Position numbers and translations under genes: made by a program
From: Gammaproteobacteria bacterium
GTDB taxonomy: Bacteria > Pseudomonadota > Gammaproteobacteria > Pseudomonadales > Azotimanducaceae
NCBI GenBank assembly: GCA_026705345.1
Contig: JAPPAV010000105.1
Span: 1-64,000 of the forward strand
Direction of reading: 5' to 3'
DNA length: 64,000 nt
Notes under the pieces: generated by a model
The model's input: only the letters and a program-made list of their open reading frames with translations
What the model was told of the DNA's origin: nothing
Databases searched by the model: none
Part shown: positions 17,249 through 62,373 of the stretch, one piece after another
Layout of the letters: each line of letters starts with the position of its first letter
Position numbering within the stretch: position 1 is the stretch's first letter

Positions 17249-18253
17249 TTATCGTCTCCGAAGAAGGCGGGTCAGATAATATTGTGGGTGCTGAAGCCGC
17301 GATCGCGTGCTCTTCACATCCACCATCTCGTCTCTGGCAATGCGATCTGCACGCTCGGAGAAATCCGGCACGGAATCAGGGAACTGCAGGAACGCAGCCC
17401 ACAGGTCCGCGCCGCGTTCCCGCTGTGTCATCTGCTGACGTGCGATCGGGGATGTGGGGCTGTCAAGGTGGTGCCTCACCTTGGCCATGATTTCATCTTG
17501 GCTGCTTGCCGGATGATACATCGCGTCCTCAATGGTCTTCCGTAGCGCGAAGGCGGCATCGCGCGGGTATAGCTCTTCGTACGGGGCACGCACAGGATTG
17601 GCCCATTCAAGCGCGTGCCCGACTTCGTGGGCCAGTACTAACGGGCTGCTACTAGGGTCAATGCTTATCTGGCCACTCTTATTGATCGCTTGATAGGGTG
17701 CGTTGGGCGGAACCCCCACGATCCGGCCCGCGCGCTCGGGCCATATAGCGCTGTAAGGTCTCGCAAACGGCAGCATAAGTTCCCGTGCAGGACCCTCAAA
17801 CACTTCCGCGATGTCTTCTGTTGACCGGTAGCCGGATTCCGCCAGAGGACGAGTAGCAGGTTGCGGTGCCCTTCGTCCTCTGCGAACCAGATTGCGACCC
17901 AGCTTGCCGGCGACCTTGGCGGCTTTCGCCGGCGGGAACGCGGCGGTCGCGGCCTCGAACGCCCATTCGCCGGGCGTGTCGGGCACCAGCATTTCGCGCA
18001 CACCCCGGGCCACGCGGAGCGCGCGGTCCATCAGCGAAGGCTCCTCCGGCCGCGGCGCAAAGTCCACATGGTCCGCAGCCCGCATTTCGGGGATTTGGCG
18101 CCCCGTGGCGGAGGACCTTCCCCGGTACGCGCGGCCATGGCGGGCACGCTGGCGCTTGTCGGGGTCGGGGCCGTCGCCGCCTCTCTGCTCCTGCGTAGTT
18201 AGGCCCGACACCCCGTGGATGCGGTCGAGCACCTGCGAATCAAGGCTGGCCAT
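17249..18253 (-). CDS. Zincin-like metallopeptidase, virion-associated, paralogue 1 (334 aa)
   Basis: Residues 209-213 read HEVGH followed by ALEW, a typical zincin active-site helix, and a downstream ERGAD could supply the glutamate third ligand as in gluzincins. The N-terminus (MASLDSQVLDRIHGVSG) and roughly residues 28-118 are shared with the gene at 20219-21232; within the shared block the DNA is nearly identical, whereas the catalytic halves have diverged, keeping only motifs such as FPDSVPxFxE. The end is basic (LLRRR). The gene starts at ATG 18253, abutting the stop of the preceding gene. Zincin domains are a recurring component of phage polyvalent proteins, so an ejected protease acting in the host is a reasonable inference; no substrate can be named. 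Confidence 0.75.
   Translation of the reverse strand: MASLDSQVLDRIHGVSGLTTQEQRGGDGPDPDKRQRARHGRAYRGRSSATGRQIPEMRAADHVDFAPRPEEPSLMDRALRVARGVREMLVPDTPGEWAFEAATAAFPPAKAAKVAGKLGRNLVRRGRRAPQPATRPLAESGYRSTEDIAEVFEGPARELMLPFARPYSAIWPERAGRIVGVPPNAPYQAINKSGQISIDPSSSPLVLAHEVGHALEWANPVRAPYEELYPRDAAFALRKTIEDAMYHPASSQDEIMAKVRHHLDSPTSPIARQQMTQRERGADLWAAFLQFPDSVPDFSERADRIARDEMVDVKSTRSRLQHPQYYLTRLLRRR
17900..18172. repeat. 273-bp long-range direct repeat, copy 1
   Basis: This stretch matches 20882-21154 at 272 of 273 bases; the only difference I see is A at 17912 against G in copy 2. It encodes about 91 residues of the N-terminal region of the zincin-like proteins. The flanking sequence diverges sharply at both ends. 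Confidence 0.92.
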
Positions 18254-20222: not shown

Positions 20223-21232
20223 CGCCTCCGCCTCCGTCGTCTGCCCCGCACGGCTTGGAGGGCCTCGCGCGGATACTGGAGCGCCTGACGCACCGGCTCC
20301 ACATCGATGCCACGCTCGGCCAGTTCCCGCTCGACGAACTCGGCGAACAGCGGTACGGAATCGGGGAAGGCGAGGTAGGAGCCCAGCAACGAGGCGCGCT
20401 CCTCGGTCGGGGCACCCGCGTGGTGCTCCAAGCCTTGACGGCCCACCCGCTCGAAGTCCTCCGGGTAGGCGCGCTCAATCGACTCGACCTGCTTGCGCCG
20501 CGCGAAATCGGCGTCGGCGTCGAACATTCGGCGAGGCTCGAAGGGCACACCGAGCCGACCGCCCATGTAGTCGAGTCCGTGGCCGGCTTCGTGGCCGATG
20601 ATGAACGGTGAGGACTCCTTGCCGATATGGATGGTGCCCGTGCGGGGATCGTACGAGGGGCTGCGCCTGGTGGCCGGGATCAGCGCCACGCGGCCCGGTT
20701 CGTCCGGCGTCCATTCGCCCTCTGCAAAATGCCGCCACGACGGCATCGTGCCCTCCGGCGGCCGGTGGCCCGCCAGCGGCTCGAACATTTCGCGCATGGG
20801 GCCTTCGTAGGCGCCTTGGATTTCCGGCCTTGTCCGAAATCCTATGTCCGCGAGCGGGGTGGTCATGTCGATCTTGCGGATCAGCTTGCCGGCGGCCTTG
20901 GCGGCTTTCGCCGGCGGGAACGCGGCGGTCGCGGCCTCGAACGCCCATTCGCCGGGCGTGTCGGGCACCAGCATTTCGCGCACACCCCGGGCCACGCGGA
21001 GCGCGCGGTCCATCAGCGAAGGCTCCTCCGGCCGCGGCGCAAAGTCCACATGGTCCGCAGCCCGCATTTCGGGGATTTGGCGCCCCGTGGCGGAGGACCT
21101 TCCCCGGTACGCGCGGCCATGGCGGGCACGCTGGCGCTTGTCGGGGTCGGGGCCAAACTCGCGGCCCTCCTGCGCGCTCAGCGTCGGCATTCCGTGGATG
21201 CGGTTCAGGACGCTCGAACCCAAGTCAGCCAT
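20219..21232 (-). CDS. Zincin-like metallopeptidase, virion-associated, paralogue 2 (337 aa)
   Basis: The catalytic helix reads HEAGH at residues 214-218 followed by GLDYMGG, and TEERASL downstream may provide the third zinc ligand. The start is ATG 21232, two bases past the upstream stop; this matches the paralogue start (MADLGSSVLNRIHG against MASLDSQVLDRIHG). About 91 residues are nearly identical to the gene at 17249-18253 at DNA level, while the remainder is only distantly similar. The tail is an Arg run. Likely an ejected protease; the substrate is unknown. Confidence 0.75.
   Translation of the reverse strand: MADLGSSVLNRIHGMPTLSAQEGREFGPDPDKRQRARHGRAYRGRSSATGRQIPEMRAADHVDFAPRPEEPSLMDRALRVARGVREMLVPDTPGEWAFEAATAAFPPAKAAKAAGKLIRKIDMTTPLADIGFRTRPEIQGAYEGPMREMFEPLAGHRPPEGTMPSWRHFAEGEWTPDEPGRVALIPATRRSPSYDPRTGTIHIGKESSPFIIGHEAGHGLDYMGGRLGVPFEPRRMFDADADFARRKQVESIERAYPEDFERVGRQGLEHHAGAPTEERASLLGSYLAFPDSVPLFAEFVERELAERGIDVEPVRQALQYPREALQAVRGRRRRRRR
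20882..21154. repeat. 273-bp long-range direct repeat, copy 2
   Basis: This is the partner of 17900-18172, 2982 bp away in the same orientation. It lies wholly inside the second zincin gene and ends abruptly on both sides. One mismatch was seen. Confidence 0.92.
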
Positions 21233-30600: not shown

Positions 30601-31377
30601 CTCTGGAAGCACCGTGCCGGCGTCCGTGAACGTCGGGATGAAGCAGTCGGCGTCGATCTGCACATCCCTCGTCATGTCGCTGTCGGCGGATGCGGTCAGC
30701 GCCCGCGTGTCGGCCAAGATCGGATCCGGCGAAGCCAGCAGCACCGGACCCCTGGCAATGGTCGCCGTGACGACCGACGCAAGGTCGCGATCGCGCATCG
30801 GGAGTTCCGGCAGCGTGGCCCGCCGTGCCTCGGTGCTCCAGTGGTCGGTCCGAACGTGCGCGTCGAGTTCGGGGAGCGTGGCCCGCCGTGCCTCGGTGCT
30901 CCAGTGGTCGGTCCGAACGTGCGCGTCGAGTTCGGGGAGCGTGGCCCGCCGTGCCTCGGTGCTCCAGTGGTCGGTCCGAACGTGGGCGTCGAGTTCGGGG
31001 AGCGTGGCCCGCCGTGCCTCGGTGCTCCAGTGGTCGGTCTCCGTCAGCAATCCTTCCTCGACGGTGACCATCATCGGCGAAAGCAATTGCGGCGCGAGAA
31101 CTGTCAGGCCGGTCGGGGGGCCCACCTGCGCGAGTGCTTGCGAAAGCGACACGGTGACCTGCGGCGGCAGGACCCGACCTTCTTGTAGCCCTACCGTGAC
31201 TACGGGGGAACCGACTCGCGGCGGCAGGGGATCCGGCGGGCACAGGTCTGCGCTGGTAAATGCCGAGTCCTTCGGTCGGCCTGACGCCCGCCTGAATGTG
31301 CCCGAGGCTTTGTCGGGCGGCCCCCTAAATCTGCTTGGGCCTTCCTTCTGCGGTGGGCCTGTGAAGCGCGAGGTCAT
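27640..31377 (-). CDS. Repeat-rich tail fibre or adhesin (1245 aa)
   Basis: The Pro-rich N-terminus (MTSRFTGPPQKEGPSRFRGP) leads into nearly four tandem 21-residue repeats (TDHWSTEARRATLPEL and a short linker). A recurring module then follows, with (D/A)(A/S)xVxATxxRG followed by LAAERTLAAKAESAM, and appears four to five times. A fibronectin type III-like domain follows (VTLTGLDPSTTYYIRANAT), then unique C-terminal beta domains. No enzyme signature is visible. The layout of an anchoring N-terminus, a repetitive shaft and a globular tip is typical of fibres. It starts at ATG 31377, 16 nt past the upstream stop. Confidence 0.78.
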   Translation of the reverse strand: MTSRFTGPPQKEGPSRFRGPPDKASGTFRRASGRPKDSAFTSADLCPPDPLPPRVGSPVVTVGLQEGRVLPPQVTVSLSQALAQVGPPTGLTVLAPQLLSPMMVTVEEGLLTETDHWSTEARRATLPELDAHVRTDHWSTEARRATLPELDAHVRTDHWSTEARRATLPELDAHVRTDHWSTEARRATLPELPMRDRDLASVVTATIARGPVLLASPDPILADTRALTASADSDMTRDVQIDADCFIPTFTDAGTVLPEFGVEFYRFEATGSWPITGRLTASGKAGTITTVAIQLNVGSVSNTPVMEVASPELATAFEQLDFAVLLTSEDGQHSVRLAGPGQRGDSEAPYRWMPSAAEATAMQSFLRGVYADGADVRIKVCLVYPPPAERRGLASEVAATVARGEPILADTSILADVRTLAAKAESDMRREVRSRQARLSSAVDATITRGPVGLGPPPPLLAAERTLAAKAESAMTRGLAQEPVTFTLEGLSEAVELEDGDTLTIETNEAFTFLIQDYDPATATFAAASDDAAIVQVSTPQTISLGWVFQAVSRRAEGDVTVSVTGSATGRRATTKRITVRVEAPQKQERDLESVVAATVVRGNAVLGPPPPLLAAERTLAAKAESAMTRGLPTGRVNPPTDVTVTGEAAPTMAPDKPTLTVGVTTATSIEVAVAKGSGTGGEPETVMVEAYTTSDFTGSATATAQRTGVGSVTLTGLDPSTTYYIRANATNSSGTSGYSTTATQATTAAFHTVPMGAPTSVNTLSVEWNWTNSADRPELPAVLLSDGMASWLADFQVRDNTPNESVWRVGVARPRAGTASSSPDLVAAWENRAVACVVRIGAYHLSLPGPAVSGWWNDLDDDTVPYSVRADSNELDQEFEDFCQNVASDTTAAEREAATVTFFYGPAGDVVTTDTDRAYQAASSVPELPTGGTTDENHVPAGWMRTEPPPTSTQDVYGIERTRTYTNAVFTSATAWADVAKVADRTAPGPIGVATSTFGVGVSAEVLPPIVGPTPTLYRIQIRRQDVAWDDAQNAAERTRTTAGKVQFNVSASYSWVVRARAETAQGNGPWVQQPRFDRPGDGSGLYTVNVPINRVGATYGVTGGFPAGSLARMPDDLVEGTSPGFLSALSCYTPGVDDVATFDLNVSADASGTAAARSLVQSWESRGQATIIAFPAGKVISLPGPANSQWTRTDSADPYFATVESPPSSGLLNDIVAWRNRLGPTQTATDLGGATMRISLLWG
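29483..29559. repeat. 77-bp direct repeat, copy 1 (partner 29942-30018)
   Basis: An identical 77-bp stretch occurs at 29942-30018, inside the fibre gene. Both encode the LAAERTLAAKAESAMTRGL segment. Exact identity 459 bp apart suggests duplication or gene conversion of the shaft module. Confidence 0.9.
30812..31039 (-). repeat. 63-bp tandem repeats, about 3.6 copies
   Basis: Units begin at 30812, 30875, 30938 and 31001 (the last partial) and encode a 21-residue unit containing TDHWSTEARRATLPEL. I see one or two base differences among copies. They are in frame in the fibre gene and have no spacers, so they are coding repeats and not a CRISPR array. Confidence 0.93.
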
Positions 31378-45598: not shown

Positions 45599-45638
45599 CG
45601 TTCTGGATTCTATACCTGTGAGTTGACAGTGTACGTTT

Positions 45639-46223
45639 CTACGCGCTCGCGGCCAACTTCAGCCGCTCGTCTGCCCGCTCCGCGCGTCCCGGGGAAGTCC
45701 CTCCCGGGGGAGAGCCTCGCGCCCTCCGGAGCACATTCACCGCTGCGTTCACGTCCCGGTCCATGACCAGGCCGCAACCCGTGCAGCGGTACGTTCTGAC
45801 GGAAAGTGCCATGTCCCGCCTCCGTCCGCAACCGCTGCACTCGCGGCTCGTGTGGTGCGGGGGAACCTTCACCAGCCGGCCACCGGCTCTCTGCTCTGCG
45901 GCAAGTCGAGCGGCAGCCCGTCTGCAATCCTTCCCCGACCGCGTCGCCTTCGCTGGTCCTCGCACCGAACAATACGTCCAAGTAGGTAACGCCGTGCCGC
46001 CTCTTCTCGGTCGTAGGGTTGCCGAGGCCATCTTGGGGGCTGGCGGATTGGCCGATTCGAGGGGCCGCGAGTTCCCTGAGGCGCAAGAGGAACTCGCCCT
46101 TGCCATTTGACCCTGCGGAAATCCTAGGAGAAGTCCTTGGTAAGCCTGCCGCCGGGGCTGCACCCGGAAGCCAAGGAGCAGCTGGCGGTCGTGAACCCCG
46201 ACAAAGACAGCAGGGCTTCCCAC
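45639..46223 (-). pseudogene. TnpB-family relic, C-terminal part only
   Basis: The last 85 codons preserve the end of a TnpB-type nuclease: [20 protein letters not shown] with a second CTGC pair (zinc ribbon), and [14 protein letters not shown] with the final RuvC aspartate. Upstream of this, the conserved RuvC-I and RuvC-II blocks cannot be found in this frame, and similarity seems to shift among frames, so the gene is decayed. It is a different lineage from the intact TnpB at 58774-59922, judging by the zinc-ribbon and C-terminal sequences. It lies between fibre and lipoprotein genes on the operon strand. Confidence 0.7.
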
Positions 46224-46528
46224 CCGGCACCAGCGAGCAAGGCGTCCCTCAAGTGTCCCGCCCTGGGCGAACCGCAGGGTTCGACCCGGAGTCGCTGGAC
46301 TTCCGTTGCCCCTTCATTGATTCGAGATGCATCAAGCGCAGCGCGTCGCTAGGCAGCGAGCCGTATCCCGTTTGCTCGATCCGCCGAAACGTTGGGGGTG
46401 AGCCGAAGCAAATCTGCGTTTGTCCCAAGCGTTTCTACTCCGTTGATTTCCTAACCGACGTGGTTCAGCACTGCTGGCCGGGCGACCCGCCCGTTAATCC
46501 CCAGATCGCCCGTGAAGTCAAGATGGCC
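46224..46528. other. Gene-free stretch next to the TnpB relic
   Basis: About 305 bp with no supported gene on either strand. It probably holds degraded upstream sequence of the TnpB element. No terminal repeat or hairpin that would mark an element end could be picked out by eye. Confidence 0.5.
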
Positions 46529-48560: not shown

Positions 48561-51500
48561 TCAGTCTCTCCACTCCAATGTCAGGGTACGATCGCCGGTT
48601 CCGAGAATCGCGGGGTTCTGTTCGGCGTTCGAGGCGTAGACGATGTGTCCGGCAAACAGGCCGTCCTCGAGCCGGACGAATCCGCCGAGAATGTCGTGGG
48701 TGTTACCGTCGAGATACGCTGCATCGGGCGGCCCGAGACTGTCCGGCACGGCGAACCACAGCCATCCATCGCCGTCTGACGGTTCGGCCGGAATGGGAAG
48801 AACGTTGGTCGATTCCTGCTCGCCACCGACGATCTCCAACTCGGTCGGTGTCTGCTGCGCGGCCCATCCGATGTACCGCTGGGGCGTCGTGGTGGCGGCC
48901 GCAGCAGTGATCCGGAAGTCGTGGTAGGCGACCGGCGTCTGCGCGTCGGTCGTCGAGTAGACCTCGAGCCTGAGCGTGTAGGTGTCGCCCTCGTTCGGCA
49001 GGCCGGTGGACAGGTCGTCCGGTATCTGGAAACTGCCTTGACCGTGCGAGAAGTCGGAAATCGTCGCCAGCTCGAGGACGCCGATCCCGTCTGCCGGCTT
49101 CGTGGCGCCCCCAAACCCGACGATGCGGGCCGAACCCACGTGATCCGCCTGCGAGATCGACACGTCGTAGGTGTACGACCGGCCCGCCAGCGTACCCACC
49201 GGGACGCTCTGCTCGCCGGTGATGTCGTATTGGAGGATCGTGGGCTTGGTGCCGCCTGGATCCGTGCCGGTGTTGTCTCCGCCCTCTCCGGCTTGGCCGC
49301 TTGGCAGGGTGCCGCCATCGAACCGGTAGATGTGCAGTTCCAGATTGCGGACAGCCCATTCGCCGACCTCGGGATGGAAATCGAGCGTAAACTCCGTGTC
49401 CTCGACGACATTGAACGCGACCGTGCGATCGGCGTGGACCCATGTATCGCCCTTGCGTTCGGTAATCGAAATTATCTGCAGGCTGCTCCCGCCGGAATGA
49501 ATGCGGATGTCGGCCGTGCGGTTGGCGCCGTCCGTGTTCACGTCGGCGTCGATTTTCAGCGCGTAGACGCCGCGCTTGAGGGTGACGGCGTTGCCGTTCA
49601 GCCCCTCCAGTAGTTCGGGGTCGCCGGATCCGTACTCGACCACCACGGGATCTGCCGCCAGCGGTTGGAGCGTGGTCATCGCCGACAATCTGGCCGAAGG
49701 CGAGCCCGCCGCCTGGTAGGAGATCTTCTCGACGCGCGCTCCGGACGACGCCTCTCGGTACGCTCCGAGTTGGTACATCGTCAGCGTCGGCGGGCCAGGG
49801 AAACTCAAGTGTGTGAGGTTCGCCGAGATCCGCGTGGGATTGGCAGATTGCTGTTCCGGTTGGTAGGCAATGAGGTGGAGCTTGATGGTGAGTGTTGCCC
49901 CATCAAGATCTGCCTCGGTGATGACAATCGGAGGGCCGAATCCAGGCGAAACCTCTCCGAGAGGCACGGTAAGTCGACGGTTGTACTGCGTGAAGGGGAC
50001 GAATCCCAGTCTCGCCGCTGAGATTTGAAGATTGTACGGCTCGAACTGCCGAATAACCTTGTCGTTGCCGAAATCCCAGTTGTACTCGAGCGAAACATTC
50101 AAGCGCATGTCGGTGTCGACACCAACCTCCATGCCGGCCGACCACTCAATCACCAGATCCTCGTACGGTGCCACGGGACCGGCTATGTAGACGGCGTCAA
50201 GCAAGGTCGAGATGTGGTGGTCACCACTATCTGACAGCGCTATCGTGCTCTGGTCAGCCAAAGTAGGCAACGTGAGGTCCGGCCGCACATAAAACGCGTA
50301 CGGCGAACCACCCGGAGACGCGGCGCCGGCGGTCTCCGTTCCGACCGAAGAAATCGAGGCGGTGGCTGCCGGATTGCTTTCGGGCGATACGAACGCCTGG
50401 GCGTCCCCGATGCCCGTCAGGTACACGATGACGGGACCGGCCTCCTCCACGATCGCGACTTCGTCGAGGTCGAGTTCCCAAGCGTGCGTCACCGTGTCGG
50501 TGCCAACTGCGATTTCGATTTCCTGCGATATCGGCTTCCGGTCGGAGTCGGTCACGAACATCCGGAATGTCCCGCCTTGCGGCCGGGTGAACGTCACCTT
50601 GCCCGCGAGTTTGACGATCCCGCCTTGGCGGACGACCCGACGCAAGCCTGCGGGCAGGGTCGTCGCCCAGCCCCGCCATGTGCCGGCCTCGATGATCGTC
50701 GACGTACCCTCAATGCCGCCGATCGCGGCCACGGCGGCCGGGTCGGCGTCTTCCGGCGCGCTTCTGGTCGCGCCCGTGAACGCGAACAAACGCTTCGTCT
50801 CGTAGAAGAACTCCTTCGGCCGCCAGTCGACGGCACCATCCCGATCAGTGCTCAGGTCGCGGAACGACGAGTCGCCGGGGAGATCGGGCAGGCTGGCCTC
50901 GGCACTGATGATCAGCGTGTCCGCGTCGTCGTCATGCGCGATCGTGATGTTCGATCCCTCGCGAAGGAACTGTGCCACCGCGTCCAAAACGTTTTCGGTC
51001 GTCAGGCTGGATGTGCCCGCCCCGATCCGGGCGCGCATGGCCGACTTTTGGTCCGCGTCATCCGCGACCAGTTTTCCAGGCGTGATCGAGTCGTCGGGAA
51101 TCTGCAGGCCGATCACGAGCCTGTCGCTGTCGTCGTCGTGCGTGACGATCACCCCGGATCCGGCGGCCGCTCGAATGAACGCCGCCACGGTGTCGCGCAC
51201 CTGTTCCGCCGTCAGTCCGGTATCCTGCGGCACGGTCAGTTCGAATGAGGTGGCCTGCTCGGTCGCGCCGATACCGTTGACATTCTGGATGGCGCCCGAC
51301 GCGTTCCAGATCCTGTAGCCCTCGGGCACGTTCGACCAGTTGTCGGTGTCGTCGGTCCAGTCTTCACCGTTTCGGTAGAGCGTGCCCTGCTCGGTGGAGA
51401 CGCCGTACGGGTAGCGGAAGTGGTTCGCGTCCAGATGCTCCTCGAGCGCGACGAGCAGGACGTAGGTGCCTTCGGTGATCGGAATGATCGCCTGGTTCTC

Positions 51501-54500
51501 GTACCACTGGTGGTCGCTGTGGCTGTAGTCCTTGTTCGCGGCCTCGCCGTCCGTATTGGCTTGGCTCGCGGCGAAGCGCACCGCAAGCCGGTCGCGTACC
51601 GAGGTCCATCCGGTGACGGTGAGCGGCAGGGCCGCAAGGCGCCGGTCGTGATCGTCAAGCCGGCTGCGCAGAATGTGCTCGCGGGTCAGTTGCCGCCAAT
51701 TGGGTGCGAGTTCCCACGGGGGCCAACCCACGGGCACGTCGCGCAGCGCGAGGAACAGATCCTCGGGATGCTGGAGCACGTCCTCATGCAGCGTCACGAG
51801 ATCATTCTGTTCGTACGCCGAGTCCGAGGACCAGACGCCCTTGAATCGCATTCGGTCGGTGGCGGTGACGTTTTCGGGACCGGTACTGAAGTCCATGGCG
51901 TCAGCCAGTGCGACGAAGCCGCCCTCGCCCAGGTACGGATCGTCGGGAATGGCGGGCTTGGGCGGGTCTCCGCCAATCCAGTCGACGAGCTTCATCACCC
52001 GCCGGCCATCCTCCGTGTCTTCGAACCCCACCTCCGGCGACCAGCCATGCTTTCCGATTCCCGGGATGCCCCGGAGACCCTGCGGGCCGCGGACGTTGAT
52101 TGCCCGGTCGATCGCGGTGTAGCCGGTAGAGCCGAGATACGCTGCGTCGGCGTCGGGAATGGCGGGCTTCTGGCCCGTGCCGCCCGTCCAGTTGACCAGC
52201 TTCTGAACCGCAATCGCGTCGCTCACATGTTCGAGCGCGTAGACCGGTGACCACCCACGTTTACCCTGCCGCGTCAACTCGACCGCTACACTCCAGTCGG
52301 AACTGTCGTCGGCCGGCTTCGAAGCTCCGGATGCGAACCGAATGTACCGGTCGCCGTCCGCCGCGTCGTCCATCCACGCCGTGCCGTCGGCGGAAAACTG
52401 CGTGAACACGCTGGCACCGTCGGCGCCCATGAACCGGACCGCGCCGCTGAACGTGTCCGGCCCGGTCCGGAAGCGGAGGTACGCCGAACCTGCCGCGGGC
52501 ACCGGGCTCCACGATCCGTCCGTACCGTCCGCCGAGAACTGCGGGATCGGCGTGAACCCTGGAGCGCCGGCGACGCCTTCGAGCCGGTACAGCGTGAGCG
52601 GCGTCGGATCGATGTTGGCGTCGTCGATGGCGGCGTAGATGCTACGGCCGTTGTGGCCGATGTAGAGATCGGCGCCGGACGACACGGGCAGTTGGAGCAG
52701 CTTGCCGTCGTTGTGCTTGGCCGAGGTGTCGCCACTCAAGTCGATGTCGGCAAGCGTCGTCAGCTTTGAGGCGGGGAAGATGAACGCGGCGTCCATCGCC
52801 ACCTCGCCGACCGTGATCATCCACACCTCGCCGAGCCGCACGCTGTCCGGATAGTCGAACGTGGTGTCGACGACGGTGCCGGCGGCGGTGAAGGTGAGGT
52901 TTCCGCCAGCGAGTTGCTTCGCGAGCAGGGGACCGGCCTCGAGACTTCCGCTGGCGCCCGGAATCTCGATGACCTTCTTATCGGGGTCGTTCGGGTCGTT
53001 CTGAACCGTGACGCCGGCGCCGACCAGATTCAGTACGCGGGCATTGCCGGCAAGCTCCGACCCTTCGTCCTCGACGGTGACCGACCCGCCCTCGCCGATG
53101 TCGAGTTCCTTGTTCGGGTCGTCGGCCGTGACTCCCGGGTTGCTCGCGGGATGCAGAATCGCCTTGACGGCATCGTAGAGGTTGCTCTTGGTCGGCAGAA
53201 ATACGCCATCGCCGCCGCCTTGGAACATGGAGCGCGTGAACGGCGGGGACTCGGGCAGTTTTGTCAGGTCGGTCCCATAGACCACGACGACGTTGACAAT
53301 CCCCTGGAGAGCCAACGCGTCGGCAATGTCCTGTAGCGTGTCGGCGCCCGCGTGGTAGCGCACCTCGACGTTCGGTCCGTGCGCCTGGTCATCGGGCCTG
53401 ACCAACGCCTCGAGCGGCGTTTCCTCGACGCCGTTCGCACCGCCCGTCGGCTTGAACGGATTGGAAATGGCGGACCGGTCTATCAGCGCCGTCTCATCCG
53501 ACGCCACCCTGTTCGCTGCGGGGAATGGCTGATCGCCGTCCTCAGCAGGATAGGTGGCGGGTGTCGGCAAGTCGCTGAACGGCCGGTCGTCCTGAACGAC
53601 AATGCGAATGCCGTCGGCCGCCAGCGTCAGCGACATATCGACGGTTGGCTGGCCCGCGACACCACCCGTCACGTCGACGCTCTTCGTCAGAAACAGATCC
53701 GTTCCCTGCGCGTTCGCGTCCACGGAGGCGGTCACCCATTGGCTGTACGTCATGTCGCCGTTGATGAAGTCGACGACATCTTGAATCGTCGTCACGCCCT
53801 TGAGCGTGCCACCTACCGAAAACGAGATAAAACTCGGAAAGTCGATGGGGTCTCCCTTCCCCTTGTTCAGCAGGTCGCCACCGCCCACTCCGTTCGCGAA
53901 GTTGTAGGAGGCATAGTCGCCGTCGTCGGCGGGCAGCGTGATCGTATCAACACCAATGTCGTCACCGAGATAATAGAGCCCGTTAGCCAATTCCGGATCT
54001 GGATTTTCAGGCACCTCGAAAGCGGGCAGCGCCTCGATCGCCGCCTTTACTTGGGCCATCGTATCGGTCGGCAGCGCGTAGATGGCAAGTATGCCGGTGC
54101 CCGCGTCCCACTCGGCGCGAAGAGGGATACGCTTCGCCGTCGCGCCACCGGCAAGCGTGCGGGACCGGGACGCGAAGCCGCTGCCGCCGGTAGTTGTCTG
54201 TGACCCGACACCGCGCGGGCTGGCTTGGATCAATTGGACGTTGTTGCGGCGCGCGGCGTTGATCGCGTTTGCGATCTGCGTCATGGAGGTATTGCCGTTG
54301 ACGCCGATCGTCATGGCCGTGTCGCTGGTGTAAGCGACGCTTGGGTTGCCTGCGGTCGCATTCGTGGTATCACGCGTGAGCGTCACGGTGAAGCCGTTGC
54401 CCGAGGGGCCGGTCTCGTGGTATACCAGATTGATCTTGAAGTTGTCCGACCCGGAACCATCGGTGAATCCAACATCAATGACTGCCGACGCCGCGACAGG

Positions 54501-57500
54501 ACCTCCCAACGCCGTCCTGTGCGCTTCCACGCGACCGTAGTTCGTCTCCTTTGCGGTCAGCACCGTCCCGCCGTCCGCAAGGACTGCGGCGGTGGACCAT
54601 ACCGTCGCGCTGCTCCCGATCTGCTCCGCGCCCTGGGGCAACCCTGGCACCAAGCTGGCCGTGACCAGTTGGTCGTCGTTGTCGTCCCGGGCCGCGTTGA
54701 TGGCGGCAATGACTTCTTCGTTGGTGATGTGGCCCCGAAGGCTCACCACCATCGCGGTTGCGGACGTGTATCGAGCCTGCGGCGTGCCGTCCGGTGCAGT
54801 CGCCGAATACTCGAATGTGACCTCGAAGCCGTTGCCCACCGTTCCCGGCGTGTTGTGCGTGACCCGGACGGTTGCATTGCCACTGGTTGAGGCCCACCGG
54901 GCATCCGCAAACGCCCTTGTGAGCCCGTCGGGCCGCGTGATGCGTAGCAACCCACTTGACGAGGCCAGGTCCGCATAGGCGTTGGCAAGGTAGCGCGGCT
55001 TCCCTCTGTCCGGTTCCCCGTCGAGGTCGGGGTAAAAGGATTCACTGCCGTATTCGCTCGAAACCGAGATGGTGCTGCCAATCTCATTCTGCGTCTGCGT
55101 CAGCCGGAAACCTTGATTTACGGCCGTGCCCAACTCTTCTTCAGCTGGCGCCGCGTACGGCGTCACGGTGATGTCCTCGGCATTCAGCGTCTCGGGCAGG
55201 CCGAGCACATAGTCGTTCGGTAGAACGAACTCCAAGGTATCACCCCCATCGCCGGGAATGACGATCCGCGCCAGCACCTCTTCCTCGGCAAGCTGCCGCT
55301 CGAAGCCGCGCAGGTGCCATGAGTAGTCCGCATCGGGAACGCTGACGAACAATCCGAGCGCGGCATCGTCGCCTTGACGCAACAGCGCCCCGACATTCAG
55401 ACCTTGCAGATCCTCGTGCACCGAACGCCGGAATCCCGTGGGTTCCGGAACGGCGTCGAGCGACGTTCCGTACAGAGGTCTTACGACATAGCTCTTCAAC
55501 GCCTCGAGGATGTCGCCCAGGGTATCGGTGTCCGGGTCGTAGCGAACCTCGATGTGCGGCCCCTCGGGAGCATCCGGCCACAACCCCGCCTCGATTGGTC
55601 CGAGCAGGGCGCCGTCCACTCCGCCCTCGGGGGACGAAGGCAGCATATGCGACACGGGGTCGGTCGCTGACCCACCACCTGACGTGTCGATTTCGACGTT
55701 CGCCGCCGGCAGGTTGGCCGTTTCGCCCTCCAGGTTGACGTACACTGCACCGCTGAACGCGTCGGCGAGTTCCTGCAAGGTCGTGTTCTGAGCCTCGCCG
55801 TCGTAAGCGATCAGGCTGATCCTTAGCGGTGACCGCGGGGCGATCGGCAGGGTGACGGCCGCAGACGGATTGCGGCGGGCCACGCCATCGGATCCGCCCG
55901 ACAGCCGGACTTCCTCCTGAATGCTCAGATACTCGGCGCCGGTAGCCCCCGGATCTGTCGCGACCGACAGGACGAAGTTGGTGTCGGAATATGCGTCGAT
56001 CATGTCCTGCACGGTGGCCTGAAGGGCCGTGTAGGTGATGACGAGATACAGGATACCGTCCCGGCGCTGTGTTTCCTCGGCGACCGAGAATGCCTCGCCG
56101 TCCTCCGCAAAACGGAGGGCAACGGCAAGGTTGTTACCCGCTGCTCCAGCCGCCGCGGCATCCACCCGCAGGGATCCGATCGTCACGCCGGCGGTCGTCA
56201 CCTGATTCGTCGGCTGCGGGAACGGGGTGTAGGCCGGTTCAATCCTGTTCTGATCAGACGGCCCGAGCGGTGCGACCACCTCGTAGGTGAGTTGCCCGCC
56301 GCTCATAGATTCGGCGTACGCCATGTCCGTTGGGAGCGTGACGGCCAGCGTCGCGTCCCCGTCCGCATTCGCGAACACGAGTTTGGCGGCCACGGGGTCG
56401 CGCGGCGGAGTGCGCGGCGCACCGTGAATGTGCCAGTCGTGACCGACGCTTTCGTGTGCCAGGTACAGAGCGCCGTCTTGGTCGCTCAGCGCGCGGAGAA
56501 GCCCTCCGAGCAGCAACCCGCTTTCGCCGAAGATGCCGAACGGCTTCGCGAAATCGGGATGTTCGAGTTCATTCGATACCTGCGTGCCGGGAAGCAAAGC
56601 GACTTCAACGCCGCGGAGACGCTCCAACGCCGACCACAGTACATCGGCGGTCGTGCCGGGAACGTAGCTGACGACAACGCACTGGTTGTCGGCGTCGACC
56701 CACGCCCTCGCATCACCCGCGACGAAGGGAAACGACTCCGGGGGGCCGCTACTGTGATAGGCCGACATCGGCACCGTGGGGTTGGCTTCGCTGATGTCGC
56801 CGCCGAACTCCGTCCAGACGCGCGCCAACACTCCCGTGGTGTCGGTGTCCGGGTCGTAGTTGAACCGGAGCACCCGCGTACGCGTGTCCACATGCAGATA
56901 CGCATTGTCCGCGCTTCTTTCCAGGACGCCGAAGGTGAAAACGCCTCTGACCGCGAATCCCAAGTACCGCTCCGCTTGGTTCAACAGCACGCCGTTGGCG
57001 GTGGCTTCGGTTGTGTAGCCGTCCGGATCGCCGATCAGGTAGACCGAGAATCCAGCGGGCACGTTCGTCCAATTCTGCCTCTGCCAGGAATTGAACTCAT
57101 AGGTCGTGTCCCCGATGTCCGTCCCGAAGATCCTGATCGAATATTCGTTCACGTCGTCGTCGTAGACGAGTGCGTAGAACCGATGAGCGGCACCACCGCC
57201 TGCAACGTACGCAGCGGCCGTAAACACATGATCTTCCGCGTCCGTGCTATCGGACGTGGTGGCGACAAAACCGATCGTCGCGGGCGGGCCGCCAACCGCC
57301 AACGCGGAATCTTCGGTCCCGTTCCATGTGCCGGTCTCCATGACCTGCTCACCGTTGACCCGGTACGTCTCAAGCCGACGGCGAACATCGGCCACCGTGT
57401 CGCCGGTCTCGACGATCAGGCCGATCTTGACGGGGTCGGAGGAGCCTTCGACGGCATCAAGGTGATAGACGTTCTGTCCGGGCACGGGCACGAACGGAAA

Positions 57501-58274
57501 TGCCTTCGGCTGGAGCCAGTCGTCCAGTTGCTGGCGCCATGCGGCGTAGAACTCGCCGTGCTCCAGCGTTGCACCACTCCATGAGCCAACCCCGCGAACC
57601 CAAATGCCGCCGTCGGGGATCCCGTCCCTGTCGCGGTCCAGGAAATCGACATACAGCGTGGGCGCCTCGAGTTCCAGCCCGGGACTGCCCGCGCGTCCTT
57701 CTTGGTTGCCGGCGAACTGTGTCACGCCAATGTCGTCCGGCGTCAACGTTCCGTTCTGGTCGTGCGACGCGATTTCAAACTGATCCGCTATGTCACCCGT
57801 GGAGGGGAACGCCGCGACGATCGTCGAAATCGGCGTGTAGGGTTCCGCCTCGAGGAGCAGGGTTCTCCCGAAACTCAGCGACCAGGACGGCGGCTCGCCG
57901 GGAAATGCCGGACGCACCTGAAGGGTCGGCTCCTGATTTTCGCTTTCCTGCCTCTGGGCGTATCTCCGCTGTACGGTCAGGACATCGCGAATCGAAACCG
58001 ACGACGGTCGGGCCTCCACATAGTTGTTCAGCTCGAAACGCCACCCGGCATGATCCAAAGCCCGGTGCAGAAACAGGTCGACCCGTTGGGCGCCAGATCC
58101 CAGCCTCACATATGGCTGTGGCTCGTCGATCCCCTTGAGCGTCCATTCCGGGTTCGCCTTGCGGTAGGACACCGCGATTCCGTGCGAGCGGTCGTTTGCC
58201 GAGCGCACGACCGCCCACGCGCGACCCTTTCCACCAGTCCCTGTACCGAAAAACGGGGGTCCGATTCTGGACAT
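48561..58274 (-). CDS. Giant modular virion or tail-fibre protein (3237 aa)
   Basis: One unbroken frame with no enzyme motif, made of repeating beta modules. A motif like VRYDPDTDTLGDILEAL occurs near residues 475, 915, 1400 and 1645. A second module (GNGFxVxL, then YTSxTAMxIxxxG and AINAAR) recurs near 710, 1145 and 1295. Short Gly-X-Y pieces (GPQGLRGIPGIG near 2060) and an Asp/Gly-rich shaft follow, then a jelly-roll-like region (GVYALKIDADVNTDGANR near 2910). A GGAGG box 11 nt upstream supports ATG 58274. Length and composition suggest a long fibre or a wrapped structural protein; an ejected role cannot be excluded. Confidence 0.78.
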   Translation of the reverse strand: MSRIGPPFFGTGTGGKGRAWAVVRSANDRSHGIAVSYRKANPEWTLKGIDEPQPYVRLGSGAQRVDLFLHRALDHAGWRFELNNYVEARPSSVSIRDVLTVQRRYAQRQESENQEPTLQVRPAFPGEPPSWSLSFGRTLLLEAEPYTPISTIVAAFPSTGDIADQFEIASHDQNGTLTPDDIGVTQFAGNQEGRAGSPGLELEAPTLYVDFLDRDRDGIPDGGIWVRGVGSWSGATLEHGEFYAAWRQQLDDWLQPKAFPFVPVPGQNVYHLDAVEGSSDPVKIGLIVETGDTVADVRRRLETYRVNGEQVMETGTWNGTEDSALAVGGPPATIGFVATTSDSTDAEDHVFTAAAYVAGGGAAHRFYALVYDDDVNEYSIRIFGTDIGDTTYEFNSWQRQNWTNVPAGFSVYLIGDPDGYTTEATANGVLLNQAERYLGFAVRGVFTFGVLERSADNAYLHVDTRTRVLRFNYDPDTDTTGVLARVWTEFGGDISEANPTVPMSAYHSSGPPESFPFVAGDARAWVDADNQCVVVSYVPGTTADVLWSALERLRGVEVALLPGTQVSNELEHPDFAKPFGIFGESGLLLGGLLRALSDQDGALYLAHESVGHDWHIHGAPRTPPRDPVAAKLVFANADGDATLAVTLPTDMAYAESMSGGQLTYEVVAPLGPSDQNRIEPAYTPFPQPTNQVTTAGVTIGSLRVDAAAAGAAGNNLAVALRFAEDGEAFSVAEETQRRDGILYLVITYTALQATVQDMIDAYSDTNFVLSVATDPGATGAEYLSIQEEVRLSGGSDGVARRNPSAAVTLPIAPRSPLRISLIAYDGEAQNTTLQELADAFSGAVYVNLEGETANLPAANVEIDTSGGGSATDPVSHMLPSSPEGGVDGALLGPIEAGLWPDAPEGPHIEVRYDPDTDTLGDILEALKSYVVRPLYGTSLDAVPEPTGFRRSVHEDLQGLNVGALLRQGDDAALGLFVSVPDADYSWHLRGFERQLAEEEVLARIVIPGDGGDTLEFVLPNDYVLGLPETLNAEDITVTPYAAPAEEELGTAVNQGFRLTQTQNEIGSTISVSSEYGSESFYPDLDGEPDRGKPRYLANAYADLASSSGLLRITRPDGLTRAFADARWASTSGNATVRVTHNTPGTVGNGFEVTFEYSATAPDGTPQARYTSATAMVVSLRGHITNEEVIAAINAARDDNDDQLVTASLVPGLPQGAEQIGSSATVWSTAAVLADGGTVLTAKETNYGRVEAHRTALGGPVAASAVIDVGFTDGSGSDNFKINLVYHETGPSGNGFTVTLTRDTTNATAGNPSVAYTSDTAMTIGVNGNTSMTQIANAINAARRNNVQLIQASPRGVGSQTTTGGSGFASRSRTLAGGATAKRIPLRAEWDAGTGILAIYALPTDTMAQVKAAIEALPAFEVPENPDPELANGLYYLGDDIGVDTITLPADDGDYASYNFANGVGGGDLLNKGKGDPIDFPSFISFSVGGTLKGVTTIQDVVDFINGDMTYSQWVTASVDANAQGTDLFLTKSVDVTGGVAGQPTVDMSLTLAADGIRIVVQDDRPFSDLPTPATYPAEDGDQPFPAANRVASDETALIDRSAISNPFKPTGGANGVEETPLEALVRPDDQAHGPNVEVRYHAGADTLQDIADALALQGIVNVVVVYGTDLTKLPESPPFTRSMFQGGGDGVFLPTKSNLYDAVKAILHPASNPGVTADDPNKELDIGEGGSVTVEDEGSELAGNARVLNLVGAGVTVQNDPNDPDKKVIEIPGASGSLEAGPLLAKQLAGGNLTFTAAGTVVDTTFDYPDSVRLGEVWMITVGEVAMDAAFIFPASKLTTLADIDLSGDTSAKHNDGKLLQLPVSSGADLYIGHNGRSIYAAIDDANIDPTPLTLYRLEGVAGAPGFTPIPQFSADGTDGSWSPVPAAGSAYLRFRTGPDTFSGAVRFMGADGASVFTQFSADGTAWMDDAADGDRYIRFASGASKPADDSSDWSVAVELTRQGKRGWSPVYALEHVSDAIAVQKLVNWTGGTGQKPAIPDADAAYLGSTGYTAIDRAINVRGPQGLRGIPGIGKHGWSPEVGFEDTEDGRRVMKLVDWIGGDPPKPAIPDDPYLGEGGFVALADAMDFSTGPENVTATDRMRFKGVWSSDSAYEQNDLVTLHEDVLQHPEDLFLALRDVPVGWPPWELAPNWRQLTREHILRSRLDDHDRRLAALPLTVTGWTSVRDRLAVRFAASQANTDGEAANKDYSHSDHQWYENQAIIPITEGTYVLLVALEEHLDANHFRYPYGVSTEQGTLYRNGEDWTDDTDNWSNVPEGYRIWNASGAIQNVNGIGATEQATSFELTVPQDTGLTAEQVRDTVAAFIRAAAGSGVIVTHDDDSDRLVIGLQIPDDSITPGKLVADDADQKSAMRARIGAGTSSLTTENVLDAVAQFLREGSNITIAHDDDADTLIISAEASLPDLPGDSSFRDLSTDRDGAVDWRPKEFFYETKRLFAFTGATRSAPEDADPAAVAAIGGIEGTSTIIEAGTWRGWATTLPAGLRRVVRQGGIVKLAGKVTFTRPQGGTFRMFVTDSDRKPISQEIEIAVGTDTVTHAWELDLDEVAIVEEAGPVIVYLTGIGDAQAFVSPESNPAATASISSVGTETAGAASPGGSPYAFYVRPDLTLPTLADQSTIALSDSGDHHISTLLDAVYIAGPVAPYEDLVIEWSAGMEVGVDTDMRLNVSLEYNWDFGNDKVIRQFEPYNLQISAARLGFVPFTQYNRRLTVPLGEVSPGFGPPIVITEADLDGATLTIKLHLIAYQPEQQSANPTRISANLTHLSFPGPPTLTMYQLGAYREASSGARVEKISYQAAGSPSARLSAMTTLQPLAADPVVVEYGSGDPELLEGLNGNAVTLKRGVYALKIDADVNTDGANRTADIRIHSGGSSLQIISITERKGDTWVHADRTVAFNVVEDTEFTLDFHPEVGEWAVRNLELHIYRFDGGTLPSGQAGEGGDNTGTDPGGTKPTILQYDITGEQSVPVGTLAGRSYTYDVSISQADHVGSARIVGFGGATKPADGIGVLELATISDFSHGQGSFQIPDDLSTGLPNEGDTYTLRLEVYSTTDAQTPVAYHDFRITAAAATTTPQRYIGWAAQQTPTELEIVGGEQESTNVLPIPAEPSDGDGWLWFAVPDSLGPPDAAYLDGNTHDILGGFVRLEDGLFAGHIVYASNAEQNPAILGTGDRTLTLEWRD

Positions 58275-58773: not shown

Positions 58774-59922
58774 ATGGCCTCCAAGCCCGAATCTACGATC
58801 GTTGCTCAGGCAATCAAGGGGCGGCTCTATCCGAACCGCGACCAGGCGACAGCGCTCCATTCGATGCGATACCTGCTCGCCTGTATCCGCGAGCGCGTCA
58901 AGGCGGAGTCGCGGGAATACTACGAGACCCACGGCAAGTCATGTCCGGCCGGTTGGCTCCAGAAGGAAATCGCGCAACCGATGCACCGGAAACTCGGGAT
59001 GCGGTGCTGTGCGCTGTCGGTCGTCAACGTCGTGGACACGGTGCGCCGTTCCTACGTCAACTGGTGGAAGCGGCCCGACCACTGCAAGCCGCCGGCGAAG
59101 CGGCATCCCGATCGCTATCCGGCAAACATCTACATCCACAATCAGCGGCTCGAAGTCAACCCCGCCCGGGGCCGTATCCGCATCCTCGGCAACAAGGTCG
59201 GCTGGATGCGCTGGCGGGGCGGCCGGTGGCCGGAAGGCAAGATCATGTCCGGCCGGGTCTCGTACCGGGGCGGCTACTGGTATCTGTCGATCCAGTTCGA
59301 CGCGCCGCCGCCGCAATATGCCGTGCCGAAGGTGGAGGCAGTCGGGATTGATCCCGGGATCCGGGCGATGACCATGCACGACGGCGAGCACTCGGTGCAG
59401 TTCCGCCGGGTCCCGGAGCGGTCGAAGAAGCGGCGGCGGCGGCTCGACCGCAAGATGAAACGGTGCAAGCCGGGGTCGGCGCGCTACCGGAAGATGAAGG
59501 CGACGCGCGCGAAGCTAATGGAACGCGAGGCGAACGTCAGGCGCGACACGAGCCACAAGATCACGCGCGCATTGGTTGACCACGCCGAAATCGTCGGCTA
59601 CGAGGATCCGAGCGCGAAGGCGTGGCAGGAGTCGGGGATGTTCGGCGAGGCGTCGCGCGAGGCGAGCCCAGGTGAGTTCTGCCGCCAGTTGCGCTACAAA
59701 GGCAAATGGGCGGGCCGCACGGTTGTTGCAGTGCCCGAGTCCGCCGCCAGCACACAGACGTGCCACGAGTGCGGCGAGCGGACGCCGCACGCGCTCGGCG
59801 TCGCGCTGTTCCGGTGCGAATCGTGCGGCCACGCTTCAGGCAGGGACGCGAACGCGGCGAAAAACGTCCGCCGCTTGGCTATAGAGGGGGCGCGGGCAGC
59901 GCCGCCCGAGGCGGTTACATGA
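58774..59922 (+). CDS. tnpB: TnpB-family RNA-guided nuclease (382 aa)
   Basis: The protein has the full set of TnpB/Cas12-type RuvC residues: D193 in AVGIDPGIRA, E277 in IVGYEDPSA, and D358 in SGRDANAAKNV. A zinc ribbon (C330, C333, C348, C351) lies between the second and third blocks. An N-terminal helical and basic half would recognise guide RNA and target. Family members are guided by a non-coding RNA from the 3' end of their gene to cut DNA. ATG 58774 has GGGGAAG upstream and is preferred over GTG 58732. It is the only gene on the plus strand, set against the late operon, and no Y1 transposase gene is nearby. It is probably active as judged from the residues. Confidence 0.88.
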   Translation: MASKPESTIVAQAIKGRLYPNRDQATALHSMRYLLACIRERVKAESREYYETHGKSCPAGWLQKEIAQPMHRKLGMRCCALSVVNVVDTVRRSYVNWWKRPDHCKPPAKRHPDRYPANIYIHNQRLEVNPARGRIRILGNKVGWMRWRGGRWPEGKIMSGRVSYRGGYWYLSIQFDAPPPQYAVPKVEAVGIDPGIRAMTMHDGEHSVQFRRVPERSKKRRRRLDRKMKRCKPGSARYRKMKATRAKLMEREANVRRDTSHKITRALVDHAEIVGYEDPSAKAWQESGMFGEASREASPGEFCRQLRYKGKWAGRTVVAVPESAASTQTCHECGERTPHALGVALFRCESCGHASGRDANAAKNVRRLAIEGARAAPPEAVT

Positions 59923-60073
59923 CCGTCCGAAATGTGCGGGTGACGGAGAGAGGTTCAGGCCGCCACGGCGGCCGGTGCTCCCGGACGATCCCACCCATCC
60001 TGTTCCGGCAAATCGCGGAGCGCTCGAAAACGAGTACTCATCCCCGGTCACGGCAACTACTTGCGGCGGGGGA
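59923..60073 (+). ncRNA. Structured 3' region of tnpB, candidate guide (omega) RNA scaffold
   Basis: The sequence behind the TnpB stop carries a 7-bp perfect hairpin (GGCCGCC/GGCGGCC, 59958-59973) and a second stem with an AAAA loop (60018-60039), leading straight into the repeat at 60074. TnpB guide RNAs are known to come from this place, starting inside the gene and ending at the element boundary. Exact ends cannot be given from sequence alone. Confidence 0.5.
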
Positions 60074-60182
60074 AGTCGCAATCGCGAGATCGCCGGACAG
60101 CGAGTGCTAGATGTCACCTGCGCCACCACATCGGCCCGGTGCGAGAGTCGCAATCGCGAGATCGCCGGACAGCGAGTGCTAG
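60074..60182 (+). CRISPR. Two-repeat CRISPR-like structure (37-nt repeats, 35-nt spacer)
   Basis: Two identical 37-nt repeats (60074-60110 and 60146-60182) begin AGTCGCAATCGCGAG and end AGCGAGTGCTAG. The spacer 60111-60145 is unrelated to the repeat and to both flanks as far as I can see. Repeat and spacer lengths match type V CRISPR arrays, and the pair lies just behind a RuvC nuclease gene with the same orientation. It could equally be a tandem duplication of the TnpB element's right end that trapped a former guide, or a chance local duplication. No adaptation genes are present. Confidence 0.42.
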
Positions 60183-60307
60183 GAGGCATTGCCCTGGCCA
60201 TTCGGGACCCGCACCCACAGCGTGCGGCGTCCCGTCTCGGCGTCGCGGCTCCACATCATGGCCCCGATGCCGTGGTCCATGAATTCCTTCCAGTTGGCGG
60301 TGATCAT
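60179..60307 (-). CDS. Small open frame (42 aa), possibly a gene cut short by the TnpB element
   Basis: ATG 60307 lies 4 nt after the stop of the gene at 60312, giving MITANWKEFMDHGIGAMMWS and ending VPNGQGNAS. Its TAG stop lies inside the second 37-nt repeat. If that repeat is the right end of the mobile element, the frame is the surviving N-terminus of a longer phage gene, and the remainder may lie on the far side. Codon phase and coupling favour translation; function unknown. Confidence 0.5.
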   Translation of the reverse strand: MITANWKEFMDHGIGAMMWSRDAETGRRTLWVRVPNGQGNAS

Positions 60308-60818: not shown

Positions 60819-60820
60819 AG

Positions 60821-60889
60821 TAGCGGGCGCCGGGATTGAACCGACCAAGCCGGGAATATGAACCCCGGGGGGCACCAGCCCTGCCCGCT
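60821..60889 (-). tRNA. tRNA-Met-like gene (CAU) with a reduced D-arm
   Basis: The minus strand folds with a 7-bp acceptor stem (AGCGGGC/GCCCGCT), an anticodon stem CGGGG/TCCCG with loop TTCATAT (CAU), a T-stem GTCGG/CCGGC with loop TTCAATC, and discriminator A. Only 15 nt separate the acceptor and anticodon stems, so the D-loop is very short (GGGC-TGGT-GCCC). It has no encoded CCA. It could be an elongator Met, an Ile2 (modified CAU) or an initiator-like tRNA. Confidence 0.7.
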
Positions 60890-60893
60890 GAAG

Positions 60894-60967
60894 TCGAGAA
60901 GGAGGGACTCGAACCCCCGATCTCCTGCTCCCAAAGCAGGCGCCTTGCCGGACTAGGCCACTTCTCG
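60894..60967 (-). tRNA. tRNA-Pro (UGG)
   Basis: A complete cloverleaf: acceptor CGAGAAG/CTTCTCG, D-stem GCCT/AGGC, anticodon stem CCTGC/GCAGG with loop TTTGGGA (UGG), T-arm GGGGG-TTCGAGT-CCCTC and discriminator A. The C1-G72 pair fits proline tRNAs. CCA is not encoded. It lies four bases before the tRNA-Met-like gene, between the capsid gene and the next operon part. Confidence 0.93.
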
Positions 60968-61032: not shown

Positions 61033-62373
61033 TTATACCGTCGCGCCCAACCCTGTCGGCGTCGCGTAGCCGGTCACGTTCGTCATCATTCCCTGGTTCT
61101 GCACATGCTCGTTGATGAGGTTCCGGTAGGTCCTCATGTAGCCGGTCGCGGCGTCCATGTGCTCCGGGACGCGGAGAACGCGGCCGTCGAGCTGTGCCCA
61201 CTGCGGCCTCTGGTAGTAGGCCCAGCACCAGTCGCGCATGTTCAGGAAGTACACCCGGCCGGGCGGGCTGAGTTTCTCGGCGGTCCACGGGATGCCGTTG
61301 AACGACAGCGCGCTGCGCCCGCCGGCCAGCCCGGTCGGAGGGTTGATGTACCGCTTCTGGCCGAGCAGGGCCTGCATGTACAGCGTCTGCTCCGCGTAGC
61401 CGCTCATCAGGAGTCCCGGCGTGGTGTTCATGCCGTCGCTGCGGACCATGATCTGGTTGTAGGCACCCTGGAGCATCGCCTCGGAGACCCGACCGCCGTT
61501 CGCGCTCAGCACCGTGCTTTGCATCGACGGCTGGTCCGTCCGGTCGAAGCTGAGGTAGGTGTTCTCGTTGTGGACCGTGTCGACCAGCCCGACGTAGTTC
61601 TCGTTGTAGCTGGTGCGCTTGAGGGAAAGTTTCTGTGCGTCCCCGCGGAGGATCCGCGCGTTGTCCATGATCGTGGTTTCGTCGAGGGTCGCCACCACGA
61701 TCTCGCCGGAGTGCTTGATCCCCGTCACCGTGCCGGCGTTGAGGATCGTCGCGTTCGTGGGGTGCAGGAACACGAGTTGCATTCCGAGCCGGAAGAACGG
61801 GAACTTCGCGGTCAGGTCCGCACTCGCTCCGTCGCTCTGTCCGTACGGGCTGTCGAACGCCAGATCGGCCGTCAGCGGGCTGCCCGACGGCGTTTTGGCT
61901 CCGGCCACCAACGCCACAACACCGCTTTCGGCGCCGATGGTCTGGAAGTAGGTCTCGAGGAAGAAGCCCTGCCGCACATCCTTAAGTGCGTTGTTCAGGA
62001 TGCTGACGTAGGCGGCGGCAGGCTTGTTCGACGTGGCCATGGAAGGCCCGGTGAGGCGCAGCGTGGCGTATTGATAGCGCACATAGTAGCTGATTTCCTC
62101 GTACGAACCCGCCCCGAAGTTGGGCAGCTGCACATCCTCCGCGCGGTTCCCCTGGCCCTCGGCCAGTCCGGTGCGGAACGAGTAGATGAACTTCTTGCCA
62201 CCCGTCATCTTCTCGCGCTTGATCTGCGAGAGGAACCAGGTGGACCGGTTCACCGTGTCCACGATGCTGTCCATGATATAATCGAGCTTCAGGATCGCGT
62301 CGATCGTGCTCATGGTGTCGGCGTCGCTCCCGCCGTAGATACTTGAGCGGGCGCCTACTTTCAGGTTTGCCAC
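61033..62373 (-). CDS. Major capsid protein (446 aa)
   Basis: GTG 62373 has AGGAGGG at ideal spacing and gives MANLKVGARSSIYGGSDADT. The protein has the order expected of an HK97-fold shell protein: an extended, charged first part (KREKMTGGKKFIYSF), a long helix region, a beta-rich core (QLVFLHPTNATILNAGTV) and a compact end (WAYYQRPQWAQLDGRVLRVP). It directly follows the scaffold gene, and the strong ribosome-binding site and hairpin suggest high expression. No known protease motif is seen; maturation is unclear. Confidence 0.82.
   Translation of the reverse strand: MANLKVGARSSIYGGSDADTMSTIDAILKLDYIMDSIVDTVNRSTWFLSQIKREKMTGGKKFIYSFRTGLAEGQGNRAEDVQLPNFGAGSYEEISYYVRYQYATLRLTGPSMATSNKPAAAYVSILNNALKDVRQGFFLETYFQTIGAESGVVALVAGAKTPSGSPLTADLAFDSPYGQSDGASADLTAKFPFFRLGMQLVFLHPTNATILNAGTVTGIKHSGEIVVATLDETTIMDNARILRGDAQKLSLKRTSYNENYVGLVDTVHNENTYLSFDRTDQPSMQSTVLSANGGRVSEAMLQGAYNQIMVRSDGMNTTPGLLMSGYAEQTLYMQALLGQKRYINPPTGLAGGRSALSFNGIPWTAEKLSPPGRVYFLNMRDWCWAYYQRPQWAQLDGRVLRVPEHMDAATGYMRTYRNLINEHVQNQGMMTNVTGYATPTGLGATV

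Follow-up and report, generated by a model that had tools for sequence, protein, structure and literature searches.

It has long been asked how a transposon nuclease served by a single guide turns into a clustered regularly interspaced short palindromic repeats (CRISPR) effector with many; a locus that bears on this question is described here. The window, by which we mean bases 1-64000 of the 66,754-base contig JAPPAV010000105.1 in a 5.07-Mb gammaproteobacterial assembly (GCA_026705345.1), contains a tnpB gene followed by two identical repeats that enclose one spacer. By its tested features, the element combines a TnpB with a type V-U-like array; by curated model, it is not C2c8/V-U4. We read it as a type V-U-like mini-system whose omega-RNA appears to be splitting into a scaffold resembling a trans-activating CRISPR RNA (tracrRNA) and units resembling CRISPR RNAs (crRNAs), and in which a small array most likely guides the TnpB. 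An IS200/IS605-type TnpB whose omega-RNA became a scaffold plus a miniature repeat-spacer array is, in our judgment, the probable identity of the element. As close relatives carry from one to about six repeats, a transposon nuclease is seemingly becoming a CRISPR system. The parts of the locus are as follows (nt, nucleotides; ORF, open reading frame; the length of guide 2 was assumed to equal that of guide 1).

58774-59922, plus strand: tnpB, 382 amino acids without an internal stop; RuvC triad D193/E277/D358 and zinc ribbon intact.
59890-60073, plus strand: scaffold, either omega-RNA or tracr-like, whose start lies within the 3' end of tnpB; sequence conserved up to the repeat in four relatives, one of which (L049) is without the second half.
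60000-60024, plus strand: predicted anti-repeat, complementary to much of the repeat; moderate support.
60075-60110, plus strand: repeat 1, 36 nt, starting with GTCGC; 37 nt are identical if 60074 is counted.
60111-60146, plus strand: spacer or guide 1, 36 nt.
60147-60182, plus strand: repeat 2, 36 nt, identical to repeat 1.
60183-60218, plus strand: putative guide 2, assigned by eye; flanking phage DNA, antisense to a 42-residue ORF (60179-60307).

The original prediction, made from the letters of this DNA, described two exact 37-nt repeats with a 35-nt spacer. The repeats were borne out (60074-60110 and 60146-60182, 100% identical, starts 72 nt apart), whereas comparison with the relatives set the repeat at 36 nt and the spacer at 36 nt. 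No further copies of the 37-nt repeat were found in the assembly with up to three mismatches, and Rfam gave nothing in the array region. The arrangement of repeats beside the nuclease is not a product of chance.

Relatives were sought in several collections. IMG/VR scans with the full protein, the repeat, an alignment, and fragments revealed no close relative, the loci obtained (L025, L026, and L037) being distant TnpBs; a distant DNA search of phage records gave no match, and protein searches of phages and plasmids gave matches below 60% identity only. The best non-self match had an E value of 2.8e-28 (30% identity) in the family of the window (206 genomes, its own included) and of 1.3e-30 (32% identity) among 398 genomes drawn from the phylum. 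Scanning GTDB genome contigs with a 61-residue C-terminal piece yielded at least two confirmed loci, L034 and L035, in metagenome-assembled genomes of Gammaproteobacteria, and 154 genomes of the order of L034 contained two further copies, L048 and L049, both in genome G605. These four relatives were 64-70% identical to the window protein by tblastn and 68-70% by alignment (71% over 265 columns for L035). The window and these relatives grouped as a single clade, with a support of 100/100, in a tree of 35 TnpB proteins.

The scaffold and a homologous 36-nt repeat were common to the five loci, although L049 has them in truncated form: its scaffold lacks the second half, and its first repeat begins only after the 5' half. 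The number of repeats varied: L035 has one copy, followed by flank; L034 has two, with starts 76 nt apart and 87% alike over 30 nt; L048 has four, spaced 72, 73, and 69 nt; and L049 has six repeat matches, the third and the last being without their 3' ends. Complete spacers were 33-39 nt long and differed among the loci. In type V-U loci, an array adjoins a TnpB-like effector and adaptation genes are lacking. A TnpB-like effector together with an array of identical or near-identical repeats and unique spacers was found in L048, L049, the window, and L034, and L035 has its one repeat. For comparison, a set of 35 distinct TnpB ORFs was analysed, each with 250 nt or more of sequence after it (L048, L034, and L049 entered as the overlapping L064, L054, and L059): a downstream repeat-spacer-repeat was observed in four of the five clade members versus none of the 30 other ORFs. 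In this comparison, the 33% identical TnpB that the 154 genomes also contained (L044 in genome G612) had no such repeat downstream. The original prediction of an intermediate between omega-RNA and CRISPR guides gains from the one to about six repeats, the different spacers, and this 4/5 versus 0/30 distribution, and less firmly from the anti-repeat considered below.

Repeats in relatives without the nuclease would speak against that prediction, and they were looked for in one sample, the 154 genomes of the one order. A 27-base pattern of the repeat core, allowing up to three mismatches, matched in seven genomes. All nine zero-mismatch matches lay beside the nuclease, in G603, G604, and G605, and one 3-mismatch match beside it was the truncated first repeat of L049. 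Each of the four other genomes had one lone 3-mismatch match (L055-L058) with no TnpB in the fetched stretch by tblastn, that of L056 falling in a lon-like ORF; we read these four as chance.

The protein itself was as predicted, an intact RuvC nuclease with the size and layout of TnpB. It scored 167.1 bits against NCBIfam guided_TnpB (NF040570; cut-off 100), a cut-off passed by all four clade members scanned (the window, L034, L048, and L049), and exceeded the cut-offs of Pfam Cas12f1-like_TNB and OrfB_IS605; the stricter IS200_TnpB "exception" model remained below its cut-off (155.8 of 425). D193, E277, D358, C330, C333, C348, and C351 were invariant in alignments of three and of four sequences. 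PDB entry 8h1j was matched with an E value of 1.7e-35, and the best PADLOC model was Cas12u4 (E 1.7e-38), which has no cut-off here. Two other identities were rejected. C2c8/V-U4 (Cas12n) was dismissed on 49.7 bits of the required 350 with the NCBIfam C2c8 model (36-41 bits in L048, L049, and L034), and close kinship to TranC on the match to LaTranC, the sole TranC in the search result, which had an E value of 6.1e-14 and covered residues 232-369 only. The curated Cas12f2 model also scored far below its cut-off. The AlphaFold model was poor, with a mean predicted local distance difference test score of 46.1.

The non-coding stretch had been called structured, which folding energy alone did not sustain: 59800-60205 gave a z score of -0.87, 17 of 100 shuffles folding as well, and neither the repeat, the spacer, nor the upstream stretch, folded separately, was more structured than shuffles. 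Pairing between scaffold and repeat was examined with RNAalifold on the five-sequence alignment, in which scaffold columns 112-120 and 125-135 pair with the repeat. Separate duplex predictions for the window, L034, L035, and L048, the loci whose scaffold is intact, placed the pairing in largely matching columns, nine column pairs being common to all four. In a named 17-pair structure, 94.6% of cells were paired versus 26-57% with slid partners, and its covariation score was reached by 6 of 500 shuffles. Furthermore, the anti-repeat pairing was clear against shuffles in the window (4/1000 as good) and in L048 (11/1000). These results suggest that the scaffold anti-repeat likely pairs with the repeat, with moderate statistical support.

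On this basis, a mechanism can be proposed. The tnpB transcript would run on through the scaffold and the array. The anti-repeat at 60000-60024 would pair with repeat 1 in cis, giving an ordinary omega-RNA that carries guide 1, and a processed unit of repeat 2 and guide 2 would pair with the same anti-repeat in trans, like tracrRNA and crRNA. Guide 1 would address a different target from guide 2. Since guide 2 is flanking phage DNA, it would direct cutting of phages without the insertion, resulting in homing or in exclusion of rivals; the homing-type alternative of the original prediction is compatible, the last guide being the insertion flank. More tentatively, and with rather less than even confidence, the clade may be turning into CRISPR: the omega-RNA end would be undergoing duplication into an array that has no adaptation genes but still acquires spacers, either by a TnpB-dependent route or with the help of host Cas1-Cas2 acting in trans. 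A phage would carry this array against rivals, and the last guide would still serve homing.

Several results weigh against a TnpB guided by a scaffold and a small array. The number of double changes in the 17-pair structure was reached by 40 of 500 shuffles and the pair types by all 500, and the RNAalifold covariation term was unfavourable (+1.41). Of the two compensatory pairs given by RNAalifold, the one in L049 (columns 120-236) cannot form because only one base lies between the partners, which leaves one, in the window. The anti-repeat pairing was not clear against shuffles in L034 (103/1000) or L035 (93/1000), where other scaffold windows pair better (-31.1 versus -28.6 kcal/mol in L034; -40.8 versus -30.3 kcal/mol in L035); the own repeat was the best partner only for the anti-repeat of the window, and L049 has lost the anti-repeat. 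As for targets, a search of the assembly with the initial 24 nt of spacer 1 gave no other match with up to three mismatches. The three spacers covered by the protospacer search of phage records, namely spacer 1, S3 (from L048), and T2 (from L049), gave chance-level matches or none, and no protospacers were found in the spacer searches run.

S3 and T2 were alike at 20 of 33 positions and shared their first nine bases, a value of 20 being reached by 12 of 2000 shuffled sets. The opposite strand translates to EGNRKIY in S3 and to EANQRIY in T2, both resembling EANRRIY in the N-terminal domain of a host DnaB. A degenerate S3/T2 pattern with up to three mismatches matched in 36 of the 154 genomes, versus seven matches for the reversed control pattern; one recurrent match, identical in 11 genomes, lay inside dnaB, and another group lay in an S9 peptidase gene. 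Because the matched dnaB and S9 peptidase are host genes, phage dnaB as the target is a lead only. A capsid gene was considered first as the S3/T2 target and then dropped.

With respect to adaptation genes, a Cas1 model detected Cas1 in G000, G604, and G605, on contigs other than those of tnpB, and detected none in G603 and none on the tnpB contigs. The arrays beside the fetched Cas1 loci, at two loci in G605 and one of two in G604, had unrelated repeats, and no array was seen in the Cas1 stretch of G000. Among the matches listed, those of host-array spacers (G604 and G605) to the window and the array spacers were short and chance-like.

The rival that deserves most attention, although we regard it as unlikely, is an ordinary TnpB homing element, in which the omega-RNA would end as usual in repeat 2 and take the phage flank as its guide, and repeat 1 and its 36-nt spacer would be left over from a nested or repeated insertion rather than form a working array. 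The flank as last guide and the single repeat of L035 with flank after it both fit this explanation, as do the ends of L034 and L035. Between these two loci, identity is 98% across the 2.3 kb that lead up to repeat 1; nothing matches outside their shared left boundary nor, repeats excepted, after repeat 1. The common left boundary is abrupt and has, by eye, an inverted repeat ATCCTGCC...GGCAGGAT, which we take to be of the kind found at IS200/IS605 ends. Since the two loci are near-identical up to repeat 1 and their surroundings differ, the element appears to move. Against this rival, L048 has four repeats, at 72, 73, and 69 nt, and L049 has roughly six, with different spacers, and nested insertions need not produce spacing of this sort.

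Two further explanations are much less probable. A TldR-like RNA-guided regulator, binding without cutting, is very improbable: TldRs generally have a degraded active site, whereas here neither the RuvC triad nor the zinc ribbon varies between the homologues that were aligned. Phage-encoded regulators derived from TnpB do exist, according to excerpts of one report (PMC13418256). Slightly less credible still is the view that the repeats are a mini-array or an RNA anti-CRISPR with which the phage exploits or blocks the Cas system of a host, TnpB being adjacent by coincidence. Viral mini-arrays and single repeat units of such a kind are described in excerpts of PMC11656645, but the known ones in those excerpts use repeats identical to those of the host. 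The repeat of the window occurs nowhere else in its assembly, the arrays near the fetched Cas1 genes of G604 and G605 have unrelated repeats, and the repeat tracks the TnpB clade.

A TnpB with a small array shares features with several known systems. It resembles IS200/IS605 TnpB of the ISDra2 type in size, RuvC and zinc-ribbon layout, hidden Markov model score, and the 8h1j match, as well as in a scaffold that overlaps the gene 3' end and a last guide taken from the flank; it differs in the second repeat and separate guide of the window and in the four to about six repeats of relatives, and no TnpA-like ORF was recognised beside the tnpB of the window, where none was searched for by model. 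It resembles type V-U CRISPR in its TnpB-like effector, 36-nt repeats, 33-39-nt complete spacers, and tnpB contigs without Cas1, but the window encloses one spacer only and keeps a transposon-like flank guide, and the curated C2c8 (V-U4) and Cas12f2 models are far below cut-off. TranCs are reportedly transposon-CRISPR intermediates, associated with the idea of one RNA split into a scaffold and a repeat-guide; the likeness lies in that idea, whereas the LaTranC match is weaker than the TnpB match. By description, two virus-encoded TnpBs of 401 and 433 amino acids near arrays in viral contigs from landfill are also similar, the excerpts of that report (PMC12607003) describing no relation between scaffold and repeat. 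As about 50 inferred independent associations of TnpB with CRISPR or adaptation modules are mentioned in excerpts of PMC12669027, the kind is already known. Among the papers listed in the literature searches, which did not reach a detailed survey cited in this literature, none was recognised as describing this lineage, which may be new.

The element is placed between phage genes. As predicted, the nuclease gene lies on the strand opposite to the phage operon: in the ORF listing, the neighbouring long ORFs are on the minus strand, and the one at 61033-62373 is a major head protein by its PHROG match (E 8.4e-28). By eye, the 42-residue minus-strand ORF has its stop codon within the last bases of repeat 2, which makes the DNA to the right resemble phage coding sequence. 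For the capsid protein, neither IMG/VR nor the remaining 205 genomes of the family yielded a relative, and it matched eight phage records only, at 21-23% identity; an empty site in a related phage could therefore not be shown.

Other features were noted in the window and beside the relatives. The region 45610-46520 contains a second, partial TnpB-like reading frame in minus orientation, of which 45705-45971 aligns with residues 287-378 (40% identity), followed by a non-coding stretch with a predicted tRNA-Ser (46144-46210) that Rfam does not confirm. Two adjacent minus-strand tRNA genes lie at 60820-60967 (Met and Pro by ARAGORN; Rfam confirms Pro only). The phage contig also contains ORFs of 5252 and 3237 codons (230-15988 and 48561-58274) and, within phage structural ORFs, near-identical long repeats (17892-18172 and 20874-21154, 281 nt at 99%) and tandem units of 75 nt and 63 nt (16892-17128 and 30739-31039). 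Both arrays of G605 are followed by a shared stretch with a long hairpin (L048, about 4115-4165; L049, minus strand, about 1060-1110), in L048 GGCTGGCTTAGCCAC...GTGGCTAAGCCAGCC, which may be a terminator or mark the end of the element; the gene next to it in L048 encodes a phage-type integrase (PF00589). A conserved ORF (MVQQ...) precedes tnpB in three of the five loci (L034, 2517-2861; L035, 2032-2376; L048, 1839-2318), and its L048 copy has no Pfam match.

What makes this family valuable is that its close relatives carry different numbers of repeats. Because relatives that are 64-98% identical differ in repeats and guides, the splitting of the RNA and the gain of spacers would be testable in one family with one small protein, and the phage-borne copy shows how such intermediates could travel.
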